Made by a program: the position numbers and the translations under genes. 14,143 bases of DNA from NCBI GenBank assembly GCA_025361665.1, contig JANYKF010000020.1, forward strand, positions 1 to 14,143, given 5' to 3'. Source of the stretch: Clostridiaceae bacterium (GTDB lineage: Bacteria > Bacillota > Clostridia > DSM-8532). The notes below the pieces were generated by a model. That model made no database searches and was not told where the DNA came from. It saw only the letters and a program-made list of their open reading frames with translations. Shown piece after piece: positions 1 to 7,515 of the stretch (within the stretch, counting starts at the first letter, position 1; the number at the start of each line of letters is the position of its first letter).

Positions 1-5
1 TCACG

Positions 6-106
6 TGATTCGGTGTGTTGAAGGCACAAAATGTGCCTTCAACATGCAGGATGTCAGAGACATCCTGCATAAAAACTCACAAAAGTGAGTTTTTACACCA
101 GAATCA
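6..106 (+). repeat. Cloverleaf repeat element, copy 1 (three hairpins in a closing stem)
   Basis: Seen directly: the closing arms TGATTCGGTGT (6-16) and ACACCAGAATCA (95-106) form 11 base pairs with A100 bulged. They enclose three perfect hairpins. Hairpin 1 is 17-43 (12 bp, AAA loop), hairpin 2 is 44-70 (12 bp, AGA loop) and hairpin 3 is 71-94 (10 bp, AAAA loop). No spacer bases separate the hairpins, so the fold is a compact cloverleaf. Positions 1-109 match the reverse complement of 5384-5492 at 105 of 109 positions. The element lies downstream of the MFS gene, and the match runs up to the window edge, so a neighbouring unit may lie to the left. It is not a tRNA: too long, with no T-loop, anticodon arm or CCA-type end. 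Function unknown. Hairpin 3 carries a T-tract on either strand, so weak two-way termination is possible. Confidence 0.85.
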
Positions 107-273
107 TGTTTCCATACTACAGGTTATCATGTGATCCGGGGTCACCGCAAGCCGCCAGAGGCTTATCCTCCGATATGGGAATCCTGCTGTTTGAAGCAGG
201 CATGCGCTATGCAACCGGATCCTGCCCGTCAGGCAACCGGATCCTGCCTGTTCAAGCAGCCGGATCCTTCCCG
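107..273. other. Non-coding spacer downstream of the MFS gene
   Basis: No convincing gene is seen here. The left part (107-177) shows only short imperfect inverted repeats, such as a 5-bp AAGCC/GGCTT pair near 149-164. A 6-bp hairpin CCTGCT/AGCAGG lies at 184-201, and its sequence resembles the neighbouring 22-23-bp repeats, so it may be a diverged unit of that array. No typical intrinsic terminator for the leftward MFS transcript is visible, except possibly hairpin 3 of the cloverleaf element at 71-94. Confidence 0.5.
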
Positions 274-304
274 TCAGGCAACCGGATCCTGCCTGAAAGA
301 GACG
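215..304. repeat. Tandem array of 22-23-bp repeats with BamHI-like cores
   Basis: Four units begin with CCGGATCC at 215, 237, 260 and 282, spaced 22, 23 and 22 bp. They form a higher-order 45-bp duplication: 215-250 and 260-295 are identical except for one base (G224 against T269). Less perfect relatives appear on each side (GGAATCCTGC near 179 and GGAATCCTTC near 313). The fourth unit lies inside the last codons of the leftward MFS gene, and the MFS stop codon (274-276) falls within the array. Units contain short CCTG/CAGG dyads. Function unknown; it could be a slippage-generated array or a small hairpin array at the 3' end of the transcript. Confidence 0.75.
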
Positions 305-1527
305 GGCTGTGTGGGAATCCTTCCTGAAAGCTTGCGTCCGGTTGTAGAGGCCAGGATGAATTCAACCAGGAGGAAGGCCGGAATGGCTATCAATACGGCT
401 GTCAGGGAATACCGGATGGACAGCCATCCCCCGAGCATCGGCGACAGGCCCCATCCGATGCTGCCGATGAGTGTCTGGATTCCGAACATGGTGCCGCGCT
501 GGTTCCGGTCGATGCGGCTGGTCGTGGCCCCCATCAGGACCGGTTCAATCCCGCACACGAAGAACATCATCACACCGTAATTGATCATCAGCAGCCAGAT
601 GGAATGGATGAAACTGAGCGGGATGCCGAGAATGCATCCGGCCAGGGCATAAAACCGGAGCAGCTTCATCCGGTCGTGCCTGTCGCCCAGCTTGCCCAGC
701 AGGATGCCGGAAACGGCCATCATCATGCTGATGAAGGCGTTTACGAGGCCGGTGGTTCCGGCCGCTCCTTCCAACGTCTGCAATCTCGTCTGGATGAGGA
801 TGGGCATGTACGGACCGAAAATGGAAGTGGCAAACCGGAGCACGAGCAGCAGCAGCATGGCTGACATGAACCAGCCGCGAAACAGGAAAGCGTCTCGCAT
901 ACGGGGCTTCTCCCGAAGTGTCGTGCCGTTTGATCCGATGGGAAGGAGCGGTTTGCGGTCCGAACTGTCCTGTACCAGGAACGTGACGACCAGGACATCG
1001 ATGAACAGAAAAAGGGATCCGACAAGGAAACTGCTGCGGTACCCCAGCCATTCAGCCATCACACCGCCCAATGCGGGTCCCACCGATGCGCCGATGGCCG
1101 TGGACGATGCGAGGAAGCCCAGGGAATAGCCGAGGCGGTTTTCCGGCACCGTGGAAGCGACCAATGCGGAGGATGCCGTGATCGTGCCTGTGAAGACCCC
1201 CTGGATCATGCGGAGGACAACCAGCTGCCATACCTGGGTTGCCAGGCCGAGGGCCAGCATGATGACGCTGCCGAACAGCACGGCGCGCAGCAGCATGAGC
1301 TTCTTTCCGAAACGGTCCGCCAGACGTCCCCATATGGGGGCCATGAGGCCGAGCGATATGGCGGGTCCGGCGCTCAAAATGCCGGCATACAGCTTGATCT
1401 GCGCCGGATCCGTCATCCCGAGTTCCTGGATGTAGTAAACCATGAAGGGCATGCCGAAATTGAAACTCATGATGGAAATGATCTGCGTGAACCAGACACT
1501 GTAGAGGTTGAGCCGCCAACGTTCCAT
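274..1527 (-). CDS. MFS transporter, DHA1-like drug/proton antiporter family
   Basis: Predicted 12-helix inner-membrane secondary transporter of about 417 residues, the usual length for the family. Using the start at 1527, a motif A (GRLADRFGKK) lies at about residues 67-76 between helices 2 and 3. A motif C type sequence (ASSTAIGASVGPALGG) lies at about 140-155 in helix 5. Motif C is typical of 12-helix drug/H+ antiporters such as MdtG and TetA-like proteins; the substrate cannot be told from sequence. I chose ATG 1527 because MERWRLNLYSVWF matches the usual family N-terminus. An in-frame ATG at 1551 adds eight residues, and neither start has a strong Shine-Dalgarno. It is the last gene of the leftward pta-ackA-aspartate kinase cluster, about 80 bp after the kinase. 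Oddity: its last eight or so codons are encoded by the CCGGATCC repeat array, so the C-terminal tail (FRQDPVA) is probably recent and non-functional. Confidence 0.85.
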   Translation of the reverse strand: MERWRLNLYSVWFTQIISIMSFNFGMPFMVYYIQELGMTDPAQIKLYAGILSAGPAISLGLMAPIWGRLADRFGKKLMLLRAVLFGSVIMLALGLATQVWQLVVLRMIQGVFTGTITASSALVASTVPENRLGYSLGFLASSTAIGASVGPALGGVMAEWLGYRSSFLVGSLFLFIDVLVVTFLVQDSSDRKPLLPIGSNGTTLREKPRMRDAFLFRGWFMSAMLLLLVLRFATSIFGPYMPILIQTRLQTLEGAAGTTGLVNAFISMMMAVSGILLGKLGDRHDRMKLLRFYALAGCILGIPLSFIHSIWLLMINYGVMMFFVCGIEPVLMGATTSRIDRNQRGTMFGIQTLIGSIGWGLSPMLGGWLSIRYSLTAVLIAIPAFLLVEFILASTTGRKLSGRIPTQPVSFRQDPVA

Positions 1528-1609
1528 GAAACCCGCTTCCCGAAGCCTCATTGTTCGAACTGCCCGTCATGGCCCTTATCCGGCGCAATGGGCGGGACAG
1601 CTGACTTAC

Positions 1610-2977
1610 TCACTTCCCGGCGGTTTCTCCGAAGAATTCGCCGTAGATGGCGATGACGGCCCGATCGACATCCTCCTCGTTCACGCCGAACATGATGCTC
1701 ACTTCGGACGAGCCCTGGTTGATCATGCGGATGTTGATGGCGTTTTCCGCCAGCGCCTTTGAAACGCGCGTCGTGACGCCGATGCGGTGCTTCATGCCTT
1801 CGCCGACCACCATGACCAGCGCCAGGTTGTACTCGAAACTGATGCTGTCCACACGCAGTTCCTTTGAAATGCGTTCCATGATGCGGCTCTTTTTGCCGTC
1901 ATCCAGGAACTGGTTGCGGACGATGATGGAGATGTCGTCAATGCCGGAAGGCATATGTTCGAACGGGACGAACTCCTCCTCAAGTATCTGCAGCACCTTG
2001 CGGCCGAAACCGATTTCCCGGTTCATCATGTATTTGTTGATGTTGATGCTGCAGAAGCCCTTGTCGCCGGCGATGCCGGACAACGGGATGTCGAACCCCT
2101 CGGAACGGACGGGTGTGATCATCGTTCCGTGCGCCTCCGGGTTGTTCGTGTTGCGGATATTGACGGGAATCCCGCGCTGGAAAACGGGCTCGAGGGTTTC
2201 CTCATGCAGGACGGTGAAGCCCGCATAGGATAGCTCGCGCATTTCCCGGTACGTAAGTTCCGAGATGGGCGCGGGATTCCTGATGATGCGGGGATTGGCG
2301 ACAAACACGGAGTCGACATCCGTGAAATTCTCGTAAACTTCCACTTCCAGGGCTGCCGCGAGGATGGAACCCGTGATATCGGATCCGCCCCGGGAGAAGG
2401 TGACCACGTCGCCGGACAGGGAGTAGCCGAAGAAACCGGGAAAAATGACGATGCCGTCGATTTCCTTCAGCTTCGTGAGATTCTTGAAGGATTGCGGCAG
2501 CACGCGGGCGTTCCCGTATTCGTCGCTCAGGAAAAGACCCACATCCTTCGGGTTCACATAATGGGCACGATGTCCGGTTTTGCGCAGGTATTGAGAAACC
2601 AGACGCGCGGCATTGTCCTCCCCCGCCGCCTTCATGCGGTCCATGAATTTCGCATCGGAGTCGAACCCCATCACCACACGGGTACGCAGGTTGCTTTCGA
2701 TATCGCGGACCACTTCGTCATCCAGATTCAGGTCGCGGGCGATTTCAGCGAAACGCAGCACGATATTCGACAGGACAGTTTCGTAGTCCTTGTTTCTCAA
2801 ATATTTGTCCGCGCAGTCGATGAGCATGTCAGTCACCTTCACGTCTTTGTCGAAACGCTTTCCAGGAGCGGAAACCACAATGATCTTCCTTTCCGGGTCC
2901 GACGTGATGATCTGACAGACTTTTCGAATCTGTTCCGCATTGGCCATCGAGGTGCCGCCGAATTTACTTACTTTCAT
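1610..2977 (-). CDS. Aspartate kinase (aspartokinase), monofunctional
   Basis: ATP-dependent phosphorylation of L-aspartate to 4-phosphoaspartate, the first step towards lysine, threonine, methionine and diaminopimelate; cytoplasmic. The 455-residue protein begins with the diagnostic KFGGTS motif (5-10). It has the kinase-domain signature FSRGGSD (194-200) and FTDVDSVFVANPR (218-230). Two ACT-type regulatory domains follow, roughly 300-375 and 380-455; the second contains the NQGSSEVSIMFGV stretch typical of amino-acid-binding ACT domains. Feedback inhibition by lysine and/or threonine is therefore likely, but which ligand cannot be told. There is no homoserine dehydrogenase or decarboxylase fusion. 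GGAGG at 2982-2986 sits four bases before the ATG. The gene follows ackA by 57 bp on the same strand, so it is probably co-transcribed with pta-ackA, an unusual partner for these genes. The symbol (lysC, thrA-like or yclM-like) is left open. Confidence 0.93.
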   Translation of the reverse strand: MKVSKFGGTSMANAEQIRKVCQIITSDPERKIIVVSAPGKRFDKDVKVTDMLIDCADKYLRNKDYETVLSNIVLRFAEIARDLNLDDEVVRDIESNLRTRVVMGFDSDAKFMDRMKAAGEDNAARLVSQYLRKTGHRAHYVNPKDVGLFLSDEYGNARVLPQSFKNLTKLKEIDGIVIFPGFFGYSLSGDVVTFSRGGSDITGSILAAALEVEVYENFTDVDSVFVANPRIIRNPAPISELTYREMRELSYAGFTVLHEETLEPVFQRGIPVNIRNTNNPEAHGTMITPVRSEGFDIPLSGIAGDKGFCSININKYMMNREIGFGRKVLQILEEEFVPFEHMPSGIDDISIIVRNQFLDDGKKSRIMERISKELRVDSISFEYNLALVMVVGEGMKHRIGVTTRVSKALAENAINIRMINQGSSEVSIMFGVNEEDVDRAVIAIYGEFFGETAGK

Positions 2978-2981
2978 GATG

Positions 2982-2986
2982 CCTCC
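2982..2986 (-). promoter_or_regulatory. Ribosome binding site of the aspartate kinase gene
   Basis: GGAGG on the minus strand lies four bases before ATG 2977. It supports independent translation initiation after the 57-bp gap that follows ackA. No promoter is evident in that gap. Confidence 0.65.
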
Positions 2987-3034
2987 ATGATGAATGGGAT
3001 ACCCGTGCTCATCCGCATGCTGCGTGCGCTGATC

Positions 3035-4228
3035 TTAGTCAAGCAATTTGCGGGTTTCACGGGCGATGGCGAGTTCCTCGTTTGTCGGGATGACGAGGGT
3101 TCTGACTCTGGCCCCATCGGTACTGATATCCCGCTCACCCCCGCGCAGCGCATTTTTGACGGGATCCACCGCGACACCCATGAAATCCAGCCCTTTCGTG
3201 GATTCGTACCGGACAAAAGGATTGTTTTCCCCAATGCCCGCCGTGAAGATGACGGCATCCAGGCCGTTCATGGCTGCCGCGTAGGCGCCGATGAACTTGC
3301 AGACCTGGTAGTTGAAAATGGAAAGCGCCAGTTTCGCACGCTCATTGCCGGCATTCAACGCGACTTCCAGATCGCGGAAATCGCTGGAAACCCCGGAAAT
3401 CCCGAGCATGCCGGACTGCTTGTTCATGATGGCGTCCATTTGCTCCGTGTCGATGCCTTCCTTCCGCATCAGAAACGTGACCACGGCCGGATCGATGGTG
3501 CCGCAGCGGGTGCCCATCGCGAGACCATCCAGGGGGGTGAACCCCATTGAGGTGTCCAGCACTTTTCCACCGTTGATGGCGGCCAATGAGGAGCCGTTGC
3601 CCAAATGGCAGGTGACCATCTTCAGGGTCTCCAGCGGTTTTCCGAGAAACATCGCGGCGCGTTCAGCGACATATTTGTGCGACGTGCCGTGGAATCCGTA
3701 TTTGCGCATCTTGTATTTCAAGTAGTATTCGTAAGGAAGTGCATACATGCAGACATAGTTCGGCATGGTCTGGTGGAAAGCGGTGTCGAACACGGCCACT
3801 TGCTTCGTGCCGGGCATGATCTCCTGGCAGGCGCGGATTCCGGTGATGTTCGGCGGATTGTGGATGGGTGCGAGCTCCGCGCATTCCTCAAGGATTTTCA
3901 TGACTTCCTCGTCAATGATGACGGACTTGAAGAATTTCTCCCCGCCATGCACGACCCGGTGGCCGACGGCGGAAATCTCGTCCATCGATGCGATGACGCC
4001 GCAGGCTTCCCCGGTCAGTTCCTTCACAAGTTCCGCAATGGCATCGGAGTGACGCATCATGGATGCGGTCCGAACGGTTTCGCGTCCGTCGTGGGTACTC
4101 TGCTTGACAATGGCGCCGGCGAGACCGATGCGGTCACACAGGCCCTTGGCGAGGACCACATCTTTTTTCATGTCGATGAGTTGATACTTGAGGGAGGAAC
4201 TCCCCGCGTTGATGACCAGGATGTCCAT
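3035..4228 (-). CDS. ackA: Acetate kinase
   Basis: Interconverts acetyl phosphate + ADP and acetate + ATP, the substrate-level phosphorylation step of acetate fermentation; cytoplasmic. The protein is 397 residues, full length for the family. It starts with the signature [12 protein letters not shown] (4-15). The catalytic and binding residues known from the Methanosarcina enzyme fall at the same positions: R91 (GHRVVHGG), D148 ([11 protein letters not shown]), H180 (YGFHGTSH), R241 (GTRCGTIDP) and E384 (PTNEE). The adenosine/phosphate motifs HLGNGSS (208-214) and GIGEN (331-335) are present. All key residues are intact, so it should be active. It starts 12 bp after the pta stop, and its AGAGGA-type ribosome binding site overlaps that stop codon, which fits a pta-ackA operon with coupled translation. 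Confidence 0.97.
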
Positions 4229-4240
4229 ATCAGCTTCCTC

Positions 4241-5242
4241 TCAGGCTTTCACGCCCTGTGCCTGCACGGCGGTAATGGCGACCACGCCGACGATGTCTTC
4301 CGCGGAGCAGCCGCGGGACAGGTCGTTGACCGGCCGGGCGATCCCCTGTGTGATCGGGCCGTACGCTTCCGCCTTCGCGAGCCTCTGGATGAGTTTGTAG
4401 GCGATATTGCCGGCATTCAGGTCCGGGAAGACAAGGACGTTGGCCCTTCCCTTCAAGGGGCTTGCGGCGGCCTTTGAAGCGGCAATGTCAGGAATGATGG
4501 CCGCATCCACCTGCAGTTCGCCATCCAGCAGCAGGTGTGGGGCTTTTTCCTTTGCCAGGCGCGTGGCTTCGATCACTTTGTCGACCAGCGGGTTTTTCGC
4601 GCTTCCATAGCTGGAATAGGACAGCATGGCCACGCGCGCTTCCGTTTCCAGCAGGTTCACGCAGGTGCCTGCGGAAGCGATGGCGATTTCGGAGAGTTCT
4701 TCTGCGGACGGGTTTTCCACCAGGCCGCAGTCTGAAAAGACAAAAGAGCCGTTTTCGCCATATTCGCAGTCCGGCACGACCATGATGAAGAAGGAGGACA
4801 CCAGTTTTGCGCCGGGAGCCGTCTTCAGGATTTGCAGCGCGGGTCTCAGCGTATTGGCGGTGGAGTTGATGGCCCCCGAGACCATTCCGTCCGCCTCACC
4901 TTTCTTCACCATCATGACGCCCCAGTATAGCGGGTTCTTCATGGTTTCCCGGGCCTGTTCAGGCGTGAGGCCTTTCAGCTTGCGCATTTCATAAAACGTT
5001 TCGGCAAAGGAATCAAACCGGTCGGATGTTTCCGGGTTCACGATGACAGCTTTTGAAAAATCCAGCCCCTTGCCCAGGATCTCCATCTTCTGCCCGTCTC
5101 CGACAAGGATGACATGAGCGAAGCCCTGTTCCAGGATCATCGCGGCAGCCTTCAGGGTACGGATGTCCGTGGATTCCGGCAATACGATTGTTTTTCTGTC
5201 GGCGCGGGCCCTTTCGGTAATCCGTTTGAGAAATGCGCTCAT
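4241..5242 (-). CDS. pta: Phosphate acetyltransferase (phosphotransacetylase)
   Basis: Converts acetyl-CoA + phosphate to acetyl phosphate + CoA, feeding AckA; cytoplasmic. From ATG 5242 the protein is 333 residues, the short single-domain class of Gram-positive bacteria, without the N-terminal DRTGG/BioD-like domains of the enterobacterial enzyme. Family stretches are intact: KTIVLPES near the start, [11 protein letters not shown] in the first third, [26 protein letters not shown] and [19 protein letters not shown] in the C-terminal third. I prefer ATG 5242 over the in-frame ATG at 5287 because a strong GGGGAGGAA ribosome binding site (5251-5259) precedes it at 8-base spacing and MSAFLKRI matches the family start. 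It is the first gene of the leftward unit, with a promoter just upstream. Confidence 0.96.
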
Positions 5243-5250
5243 GAGTGGTG

Positions 5251-5259
5251 TTCCTCCCC
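5251..5259 (-). promoter_or_regulatory. Ribosome binding site that decides the pta start
   Basis: GGGGAGGAA on the minus strand lies eight bases before ATG 5242. It fixes the start there rather than at the upstream in-frame ATG 5287. That upstream ATG would lie at or in the -10 region of the predicted promoter. Confidence 0.8.
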
Positions 5260-5287
5260 ATATGGTGGAAAAATCAAAACAATTCAT

Positions 5288-5315
5288 ATTATATCATGCT
5301 GTTTTTTGTATACAA
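5288..5315 (-). promoter_or_regulatory. Predicted promoter of the pta-ackA-aspartate kinase-MFS unit
   Basis: On the minus strand a perfect TATAAT (5288-5293) is preceded by TG one base upstream, making an extended -10 (TGATATAAT). The -35-like TTGTAT lies at 5310-5315 with a 16-bp spacer. It matches the consensus at only three positions, but an extended -10 tolerates this. The -35 lies inside a 10-bp perfect palindrome TTGTATACAA (5306-5315), a possible operator. The predicted transcript start is near 5281, giving a leader of about 40 bases before pta. Confidence 0.7.
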
Positions 5316-5386
5316 GATAGGGTCAGCAAAATGGCATCTGGTAATAAGATGAGGTCAATAATTGCTCAAAAAGGGCAATCCGTACA
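5316..5386. other. AT-rich spacer between the pta promoter and the repeat block
   Basis: No gene is seen. An ATTGC/GCAAT inverted repeat (about 5361-5378) with an A-rich centre lies upstream of the predicted pta promoter. It could be an operator or a weak hairpin. Nothing else is recognisable. Confidence 0.4.
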
Positions 5387-5487
5387 TGATTCTGGTGTAA
5401 AAACTCCCTTTTGTGAGTTTTTATGCAGGATGTATCTGACATCCTGCATGTTGAAGGCACATTTTGTGCCTTCAACACACCAAATTA
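5387..5487 (-). repeat. Cloverleaf repeat element, copy 2 (inverted relative to copy 1)
   Basis: Seen directly: read on the minus strand this is the same element as copy 1, in opposite orientation. In plus coordinates the hairpins are 5399-5422, 5423-5449 and 5450-5476, enclosed by arms TGATTCTGGTGT (5387-5398) and ACACCAAATTA (5477-5487). With flanks, 5384-5492 matches 1-109 at 105 of 109 positions. All four differences fall in stems and each breaks or weakens a pair: two in the closing stem, one in hairpin 2 and one in hairpin 3. None is compensated, so this copy appears slightly decayed relative to copy 1. It abuts copy 3 with two bases between them. Confidence 0.85.
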
Positions 5488-5489
5488 CG

Positions 5490-5592
5490 TGATTCGGTGC
5501 CCTTTCGGCGGCATTTGCCGCTGGATGCATGCAAGCTGCAAAATGCAACTTGCATGCAAAAAGTCGAAAATCGACTTTTTGCACCAGAATCA
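5490..5592 (+). repeat. Cloverleaf repeat element, copy 3 (divergent stems, same fold)
   Basis: The closing arms TGATTCGGTGC (5490-5500) and GCACCAGAATCA (5581-5592) form 11 pairs with A5586 bulged, exactly as A100 is in copy 1. Inside are a GC-rich hairpin (about 5504-5525, seven to nine pairs including wobbles, ATTT loop), a long hairpin (about 5526-5558, 14 of 15 positions paired, AAA loop) and a 10-bp hairpin (5558-5580, AAA loop). Hairpin sequences differ from copies 1 and 2, but order, approximate sizes, the ATGCA/TGCAT start and end of hairpin 2 and the A5/T5 flanks of hairpin 3 are kept. The last closing pair is T-A in copy 1 and C-G here. It lies downstream of the acyl-CoA synthetase; hairpin 3 could act as a weak terminator for that gene. 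Confidence 0.8.
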
Positions 5593-5634
5593 TACATTGG
5601 TTTGGAAAGAAACGCCACTGGCTGCCATGGAAAG

Positions 5635-7515
5635 TCAGATGCGGTGATCGGTGACGGGCACTTTCTTGCGCTGCATGGACTGGTTGACGGCCTCCTTCAG
5701 CAAATCGATGTTCTTACCCGCCACGGTGCGGATGCTGGCGGACATTTCCGCCAGAAGACGGTGCAGCTCCTCGATTTCCAGATAGCGCTTCACTTTCAGC
5801 GTGGTTGTCTTGGCCAGCTCCGATTCTCCGTATACGAAATGCCGGATGGCCTTATACGGAGAGACTGTTTTGTTGAAATCACGGATAGCTGCGATAAGCA
5901 GCTGATGAATGAACTCCTCGTCTCCGGGTGGATGCTCGGGCAGGTTTTCCCTGTCCACGACGATTCGTGCGCAAACCTCCACCTCGCCGGAGTCCCCCCG
6001 TTCCCCCCAGACAATGGACTCTTTCACATAGGCGATCTGGTTAAGCAGCGCCTCCATTTCTTCGGGAAATACTTTCTTCCCGGTTTTGAGCACGATCATC
6101 GATTTGGAGCGGCCGGTCACATGCAGGAGGCCCCGACGGTCAAACCGGCCGAGATCGCCTGTGTGGAACCATCCGTCCCGAATGGCTTCCCTGGTGGATT
6201 CATCATCTTTCCAGTAGCCAATCATCACCACGGGACCACGAACCACGATTTCCCCGGTTCCGGTCGCGTCGGCGCCGGCGATGCCCATTTCGACTTCAGG
6301 CAATGGCTGGCCGCATGTGCCGGCCCGCCGGATGCGATCATTGCAGCCGGCGATGACCGGGGAGGTTTCCGTGAGTCCGTATCCCTGATAGACCTTGATT
6401 CCGATTCCTTCATACCATTTTGTGACAGTCGGGTCCATGGCTGCGCCCCCGGCGATCAGGAGCCGCAGTTTTCCGCCGAAGGATGCATGCACTTTGGCGA
6501 ACAGCTTTCTGCGCAGGTCGATTCCGACAAACCGCAATCCACGCGCCACCTTCATGCCGACCGTCATCTTTTTCTCCATGCCGGACTTGCGGGCTTCATC
6601 AAGAACGCGTTTGCGGAATTTCTCGAGTATCAGGGGCACGCCAACCAGGATGGCAGGCTGATGTTCGACCAGATTTTTCGAAAGGAATTTCAAACCGTCG
6701 CTGATGGCCACGGTCATGCCGTGGCTCAGGGAGAAAAGAAGGCTGCATGTGTTTTCAAACGTATGGTGCAGCGGCAGCACGGACAGGACGGACTCTCCGG
6801 GGTCCGCGCGGACGATGCCGGACAGCGCCCGGACATCCGCGCAGAGGTTGCGGTGGGACAGCATGACGGCTTTGGAGGTAGCGGAGGTTCCGGAGGTAAA
6901 CAGCAGGATTTTCATGGCTTCGGGATCGATGGGGGCGTCGAGATAGCGTCGGTCTCCTTCGGAGATTCTTGCGGCGCCGGTTTTCATCAGGTTTTCCAGT
7001 TTCAGAAAACGGGTGTCGGGTTCGGGCCGATCAGCTTCCCCGGGGTCATTCATCCTGATATAGAACCTGACACGGCGATTCCGGGCGGAAAGGCTGCGGA
7101 TATCCTCTTCGAAGGCCGCACTGTAAAGAAGGGCGTCCACTTCGCCGCGAACCAGCATGGTCTCGATTTCCGCAGCGGGCAGCATGCGATCAAGGGGAAT
7201 CACGACCCCGACCCCGTTGGTGACCGCCAGATAGGACAGGGCCCATTCATACCGATTTTCACCGATCACGGCGATATTGCCGCCCATAAGACCCAATGAA
7301 GCCAAAGCGGTTCCCAGTTCATTCATTTCCGACAGAAATACGGGATAGCTTTTTTCCATCATGGCACCCGCGGGAGCCTCCCGATAACGAAAGGCCGGAT
7401 ATTGCACAAATCTGACTGCAGAGTCCCGAATCATGTCCCGAAGGGTGTCGTACCGCCTGGCCCTGTATATGGGTTTTCCATGTCGGATCTGTGAAATCCT
7501 GTTTTGTTCGGACAT
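5635..7515 (-). CDS. Long-chain acyl-CoA synthetase (AMP-forming), FadD-like
   Basis: Activates fatty acids to acyl-CoA through an acyl-adenylate, using ATP and CoA; probably cytoplasmic and membrane-associated. From ATG 7515 the protein is 626 residues, normal for the long-chain group. ANL-superfamily motifs are in order: the P-loop FTSGTSATSK (206-215), GYGLTETSP (378-386), GWFHTGDLG around 448-456, the hinge region VTGRSKSMI around 466-474, and a C-terminal lysine region TTTLKVKR around 570-577 carrying the expected catalytic lysine. I chose ATG 7515 because GGAGG (7525-7529) precedes it by nine bases; the in-frame ATG at 7545 has no clear ribosome binding site. The gene is monocistronic, divergent from trkH, and followed by the cloverleaf repeats. 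Chain-length preference cannot be told. No other fatty-acid degradation genes are nearby, so recycling of exogenous or membrane fatty acids is as likely as beta-oxidation. Confidence 0.92.
   Translation of the reverse strand: MSEQNRISQIRHGKPIYRARRYDTLRDMIRDSAVRFVQYPAFRYREAPAGAMMEKSYPVFLSEMNELGTALASLGLMGGNIAVIGENRYEWALSYLAVTNGVGVVIPLDRMLPAAEIETMLVRGEVDALLYSAAFEEDIRSLSARNRRVRFYIRMNDPGEADRPEPDTRFLKLENLMKTGAARISEGDRRYLDAPIDPEAMKILLFTSGTSATSKAVMLSHRNLCADVRALSGIVRADPGESVLSVLPLHHTFENTCSLLFSLSHGMTVAISDGLKFLSKNLVEHQPAILVGVPLILEKFRKRVLDEARKSGMEKKMTVGMKVARGLRFVGIDLRRKLFAKVHASFGGKLRLLIAGGAAMDPTVTKWYEGIGIKVYQGYGLTETSPVIAGCNDRIRRAGTCGQPLPEVEMGIAGADATGTGEIVVRGPVVMIGYWKDDESTREAIRDGWFHTGDLGRFDRRGLLHVTGRSKSMIVLKTGKKVFPEEMEALLNQIAYVKESIVWGERGDSGEVEVCARIVVDRENLPEHPPGDEEFIHQLLIAAIRDFNKTVSPYKAIRHFVYGESELAKTTTLKVKRYLEIEELHRLLAEMSASIRTVAGKNIDLLKEAVNQSMQRKKVPVTDHRI

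Follow-up and report, generated by a model that had tools for sequence, protein, structure and literature searches.

The window, i.e. the whole 14,143-nucleotide stretch of DNA that was analysed, is an entire contig (C56) of a genome of 2.59 Mb that is distributed over 525 contigs and is 83% complete. Its ten genes are ordinary (MFS, aspartokinase-type, acetate kinase, pta, AMP-binding, TrkH, CitMHS, two band-7 and a GidA-family gene, PF01134). Four G+C-rich direct repeats (CAACCGGATCCTGCC...), about 22 bp apart, are found at 212-297, where they overlap the end of the MFS gene (274-1551, minus strand) and the DNA beyond it. The element of interest lies between the AMP-binding gene, which ends at 5635, and pta, which starts at about 5242, both on the minus strand. 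Ahead of pta, a promoter-like stretch recognised by eye at 5243-5310 (GTATACAAAAAACAG.ATGATATAATA) is conserved in the sister species (L159). Scanning of 5200-5700 for sigma-70 promoters and for terminators returned neither.

The element occupies positions 5387-5592 and is a single compound structure of 206 bp, in which two three-hairpin units, A (5387-5487) and B (5490-5592), adjoin head to head at the near-palindrome CACCAAATTACGTGATTCGGTG (5478-5499). Both halves have in common one outer pair of 11-bp inverted repeats of the form TGATTCTSGTG, perfect in the window copy, namely TGATTCTGGTG on the left (5387-5397, plus strand) and CACCAGAATCA, as read on the plus strand, on the right (5582-5592, minus orientation). 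A single 4-bp direct repeat, TACA, flanks the whole as a target-site duplication (5383-5386 and 5593-5596). From left to right, the end TGATTCTGGTG is followed by hairpin 1 (5398-5423), whose arms are A/T tracts, hairpin 2 (5424-5448) and hairpin 3 (5449-5477), then by CACCAAATTA, CG and TGATTCGGTG, and finally by hairpin 4 (5502-5527), hairpin 5 (CATGCAAGCTGCAAAATGCAACTTGCATG, 5528-5556), hairpin 6 (AAAAAGTCGAAAATCGACTTTTT, 5558-5580) and the end CACCAGAATCA, the closing stem of unit A enclosing hairpins 1-3 and that of unit B hairpins 4-6. Some of these hairpins are imperfect in the window copy, the worst damaged being hairpin 4. Full elements measure 204-206 bp; they contain no transposase gene, the longest stop-free stretch of the window copy being 68 codons. 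An origin of units A and B as an inverted dimer is not claimed, since a clear resemblance is limited to hairpins 1 and 6.

A previous sequence-only reading of this DNA had described three cloverleaves of about 101 bp, at 6-106, 5387-5487 and 5490-5592, with their loops and closing stems. All three structures are present as described and are far from chance, but the cloverleaf stands as a structure rather than as the mobile unit, which is the double cloverleaf of about 205 bp. Since the contig, which the window covers in full, starts inside a second element, the first of the three is the A half of that element: unit A and the beginning of the central palindrome are seen at 1-106 on the minus strand, with the outer inverted repeat at 96-106.

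The same reading had proposed a covariance-model search for further copies, and this search revealed many, with conserved ends. In the window's own genome, at least 76 and at least 74 matches to the full element were obtained in two covariance-model searches, and DNA searches gave at least 40 matches for each half of the element. A sister species (G022, probably MAG bin_86; assembly 75% complete) carries a diverged set of elements. After rough deduplication, the fetched DNA holds about 100 full or partial copies, a tally in which at least one place is counted twice; 66 of them are nearest to queries from the own species and 34 to queries from the sister. The end motif TGATTCTSGTGYA, with up to one mismatch, has 176 matches in the own genome, against 0 in the listed controls, and 93 in the sister, against 1 in the listed control, some of the one-mismatch matches being due to chance, as was seen for several. 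Complete elements also occur in pairs on the same contig, at L183:1777-1980 and L183:4939-5142, about 3 kb apart, and at L105:3528-3730 and L105:5174-5376, about 1.4 kb apart. Among 84,980 species genomes, a collection that may omit the window's own genome, the exact pattern of hairpins 5-6 occurs in 18 stretches, all of them in the MAG 'Clostridia bacterium isolate bin_86' (JAIFNI01). Plasmids and phages searched with blastn gave no match to the element, and viral contigs no match to the exact hairpin 5-6 pattern.

At a wider taxonomic scale, the covariance model matches 4 of 32 genomes of the family at an E value of 0.1 and 4 of 33 genomes of the order at 0.001; the matching genomes are the own one, that of the sister and those of two species belonging to another genus, G007 (E 7e-13) and G002 (E 8e-8). 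In a sample of the class, scored with stricter filters and few candidates per genome, 2 of 391 genomes match, namely the own genome and G007. Short matches were also obtained by DNA search in G004 and G007. The elements of G007 and G002, of 193 and 183 bp, have TGATT...AATCA ends and hairpin arrays in common, and are very different in sequence; that of G002 is flanked by an exact ATTA duplication, and that of G007 has none at the fixed position. In G002 (C182), a lone perfect hairpin, TTTTCATGCAGGCGGCATCATGCCGCCTGCATGAAAG, near 1501-1529 of L155, gives a weak match to the model (E 0.02).

Insertion has left footprints. Among 45 complete copies, a set wider than and overlapping with a first set of 35 elements in which 23 had an exact 4-bp duplication, 29 are flanked by an exact 4-bp target duplication (20 of 34 in the own genome and 9 of 11 in the sister); seven more duplications have one mismatch, three are of 5 bp, and an exact duplication of 4 or 5 bp is missing in 13 copies. 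When the left flank of one copy was compared with the right flank of another, only 32 of 1980 comparisons matched (1.6%). The target is a loose palindrome: reading inward from either side, an A stands just outside the duplication in 42 of the 46 flanks of exact-duplication copies. Hairpin 3 is missing from three copies at separate places and, since two of these have exact duplications, elements of this type appear to have inserted too; such natural copies predict that this hairpin is dispensable. Mean GC is 44.2% in the elements and 43.5% in their 30-base flanks, so that composition provides no independent sign of insertion. In the sister, no element was seen in the 660 bases about the start of pta and no exact empty site was found; because a different gene lies beyond, this region represents absence at the locus rather than a clean empty site. 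An element of the own species (L127:69-293) and one of the sister (L145:5765-5967) lie 60-67 bp from the same homologous stretch with different duplications (TCAT and AGCA), which may reflect either a shared old insertion that has since drifted or two independent hits.

The surroundings of the copies were determined with a gene caller based on codon usage; its training set was the ten genes of the window, which it hence recovers by construction. Of 36 complete copies with enough flank, 23 are intergenic, 17 between genes in the same direction and 6 between divergent genes, while 6 touch one gene end, 3 apparently lie within a gene and 4 could not be assigned. A convergent setting was met once in the 36, at a gene end. 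This placement looks like that of tolerated insertions rather than siting at transcription ends.

As regards the fold, the z score of the element at 5387-5592 is -12.6 for DNA, -12.2 for plus-strand RNA and -14.8 for minus-strand RNA, with none of 200 shuffles as good in each case. Covariation was evaluated in an alignment (A3) of 27 of the first 35 elements (17 own, 10 sister), from which 8 near-duplicate or rearranged ones were omitted and whose structure was drawn from one of its rows. Over 89 pairs, 97.0% of 2346 cells are paired. Double changes are seen in 143 cells; 500 shuffles gave 46.2 +/- 5.5 and slid controls no more than 13, although related rows inflate such counts. Within unit A, the strongest covariation is that of hairpin 3. 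The number of further pair types is weakly raised, 22 of the 500 shuffles reaching the observed value. The covariation leans towards each unit closing on itself, as in the DNA fold of the window copy, where two separate cloverleaves are predicted. At position 8, unit A pairs within itself in 26 of 27 rows, a double change being involved in 3 of these, and the matching site of unit B does so in 17 of 27 rows plus one G-T, compared to 8 of 27 for pairing from end to end. An alternative in which the outer repeats close end to end over a central stem was also tried, and yields no covariation signal; some likelihood is left to it, because in the RNAalifold structure and in both RNA folds of the window copy the outer ends are paired with each other and because position 6 pairs end to end in 26 of 27 rows, compared to 11 of 27 for the own stem of unit A.

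The manner in which the stems stay paired is visible among recent copies. In 61 own-type copies at least 93% like their consensus, 5 divergent ones being left out, 3324 pair cells contain 111 single and 14 double changes. Thirteen of the 14 double changes are Watson-Crick and fall in 10 classes, whereas about 0.3 would be expected from independent substitutions, a value that assumes independent copies when related ones in fact share changes. Mismatches are of the G.T and A.C types in 38 and 40 cases in the own species, 21 and 13 in the sister and 59 and 53 in both together; the near equality in the own species implies that the RNA pairing of neither strand is favoured among recent changes. Besides, in 4 of the 12 classes formed by hairpin and species, namely hairpin 2 of the own species and hairpins 2, 3 and 6 of the sister, some loops are exact reverse complements of others from which three substitutions separate them. 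The inversion pair in the loop of sister hairpin 5, which needs one substitution, is excluded from this number, and an apparent inversion in own hairpin 5 proved to be an artefact, one place having been read on both strands. Arm-to-arm copying accompanied by a flipped loop has been published as a mark of template switching during replication (PMC8794818, PMC8604942). The first of these papers assigns both inverted loops and multiple compensatory changes to this process, with loops seldom inverted in its data on RNA genes. The recent changes thus look DNA-made, and template switching probably maintains the hairpins.

Taken together, these data make it very probable that the element, non-coding and about 204-206 bp long, is a MITE-like DNA transposon that is moved in trans and whose stems are kept complementary. 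Four of five MITE features are present (inverted repeats, target duplication, small size without a transposase gene, and many dispersed copies), the fifth would be a partner insertion sequence with the same ends, and the element is best classed with the bacterial MITEs, of which it would be a structurally new variant. A transposase provided from elsewhere would act at the TGATTCTSGTG ends, and the element would insert at a palindromic target with duplication of 4 bp; sequence footprints testify to the insertion, and the enzyme and its reaction are inferred. The interior would consist of two units, each made of at most three hairpins enclosed by a closing stem, whose complementarity would be kept as the sequence drifts, replication template switching between hairpin arms copying one arm onto the other and sometimes flipping the loop. 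Copies with intact ends, and perhaps also with intact folds, would be those that spread. Conceivable jobs of the fold include recognition by the transposase, a halt to transcription that enters the element, and the formation of a cruciform.

The mover itself is inferred, because no transposase partner was found. In the own genome, which was searched for Y1_Tnp, rve and DDE_Tnp_1, there is no Y1_Tnp (PF01797) match in the 83% that is assembled, the same search being positive in 5 of 14 control genomes, and no rve match; the single DDE_Tnp_1 match, partial and located where a contig ends, has no element-like ends in its flanks. This partial gene (L149, at the end of contig C340 of G000) lies after a small ORF and some short GCATGAAAGCC repeats. 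The sister, 75% complete and searched for rve and DDE_Tnp_1, contains three DDE_Tnp_1 and two sub-threshold rve matches, none with element ends nearby. Inspection by eye of ends and of inward-facing end pairs in the fetched DNA did not reveal an autonomous partner either.

Other readings account for part of these observations. The elements could be small structured RNAs, or regulators carried on mRNAs, that arise from many loci and are kept by selection on the RNA fold, in line with the very stable RNA fold on both strands, the strong covariation and the location of most placed copies between genes, most commonly between two in the same direction. Nevertheless, G.T and A.C mismatches (38 to 40) favour the pairing of neither strand in the own species, even if the sister alone gives 21 to 13, no Rfam family matches, the 5200-5700 scan contains no sigma-70 promoter, and target duplications are unexpected for an RNA gene family, which makes this reading highly improbable. 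Alternatively, the elements may have moved as folded single-stranded DNA, in the manner of IS200/IS605 derivatives or of REP/RAYT systems, with the help of a HUH (Y1) transposase. The close packing of the hairpins and a DNA fold with two separate cloverleaves would fit with such a route, and the inverted loops suggest that DNA hairpins were the site of events; it is nonetheless very unlikely, since it is argued against by the 4-bp duplications and by the lack of a Y1_Tnp match in the own genome, even though absence from an assembly that is 83% complete is not proof. The sequence-only reading had suggested a non-autonomous mobile element folded as single-stranded DNA: its mobility is borne out by the many copies, the inverted repeats, the target duplications and the diverged set of the sister, but the single-stranded part is not retained.

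Finally, once-mobile elements may now be kept for a cellular job, be it to stop transcription in both directions, to influence mRNA stability or to bind a protein as a cruciform. The A-tract and T-tract arms of the outer hairpins would suit such a role, and MITE transcripts of bacteria have been proposed, in the accessible part of PMC2229807, to affect neighbouring mRNAs. Little probability can be given to this reading, however, as no terminator was detected in the 5200-5700 scan, only 1 of 36 copies stands between convergent genes, the setting that would profit most from a shared stop, a gene seems to be interrupted by 3 of the 36, and the number of hairpins varies among copies.

The element can be compared with known systems. 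In the available excerpts, bacterial MITEs are described as short, interspersed and mostly intergenic, with terminal inverted repeats, a target duplication and a stable predicted fold (PMC2229807, PMC10969869), and these general features of RUP, Correia/NEMIS, ERIC, Chunjie and QMITE are also those of the present element. According to the same excerpts, most bacterial MITEs form a stem-loop from paired 5' and 3' ends, whereas six separate interior hairpins that covary within and between species are found here; a further difference is that no partner insertion sequence was found. The CIR repeats of Caulobacter likewise comprise two folded arms joined by a linker, but these arms are, as described in the accessible text, long inverted repeats, one with GANTC at its loop, instead of three-hairpin cloverleaves (PMC2229807). 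In the same line, bcr1 and related repeats of the Bacillus cereus group are lineage-restricted, of 100-400 bp and endowed with mobile-element traits, bcr1 being of high copy number, but their mobility is tied, in the available description, to repeated TTTAT motifs rather than to 4-bp duplications at a palindromic target (PMC6542083). Strings of the element occur in two papers which, to judge from their titles, concern a DNAzyme and a pigeon rotavirus. A literature search that covered titles and abstracts, mostly outside subscription papers, returned no six-hairpin bacterial repeat.

REP/BIME sequences consist of palindromic units in inverted pairs and are associated with RAYT transposases. This arrangement of units is also that of the present element, which differs by its long closing stems, its target duplications and the lack of a Y1 transposase match in the own genome. 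In agreement with the sequence-only reading, which had recognised no tRNA, attC site, REP/BIME unit or known riboswitch, ARAGORN reports 0 tRNA or tmRNA in the window, PF01797 has 0 matches in the own genome, and Rfam gives 3 chance-level matches up to an E value of 5 in the window, all of them clear of 1-109 and 5387-5592. Scattered copies bordered by target duplications are also unlike the cassette array of integron attC sites.

A bolder proposal is that the element is defined by its shape, its two three-hairpin DNA units being read as folded DNA by the mover or by the replication machinery and its hairpins being renewed by template switching, so that the architecture and the 4-bp insertion would outlast a turnover of the sequence between two genera. 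This remains speculative and rather unlikely.

The MITE-like element is well bounded, and is thereby useful for finding a transposase with these ends. With dozens of near-identical copies of six hairpins in one genome, it constitutes a natural archive of hairpin mutation. Covariation is usually taken as proof of a functional RNA, whereas the compensated stems and flipped loops of this family look DNA-made; covariation alone is therefore insufficient to call such families non-coding RNAs.
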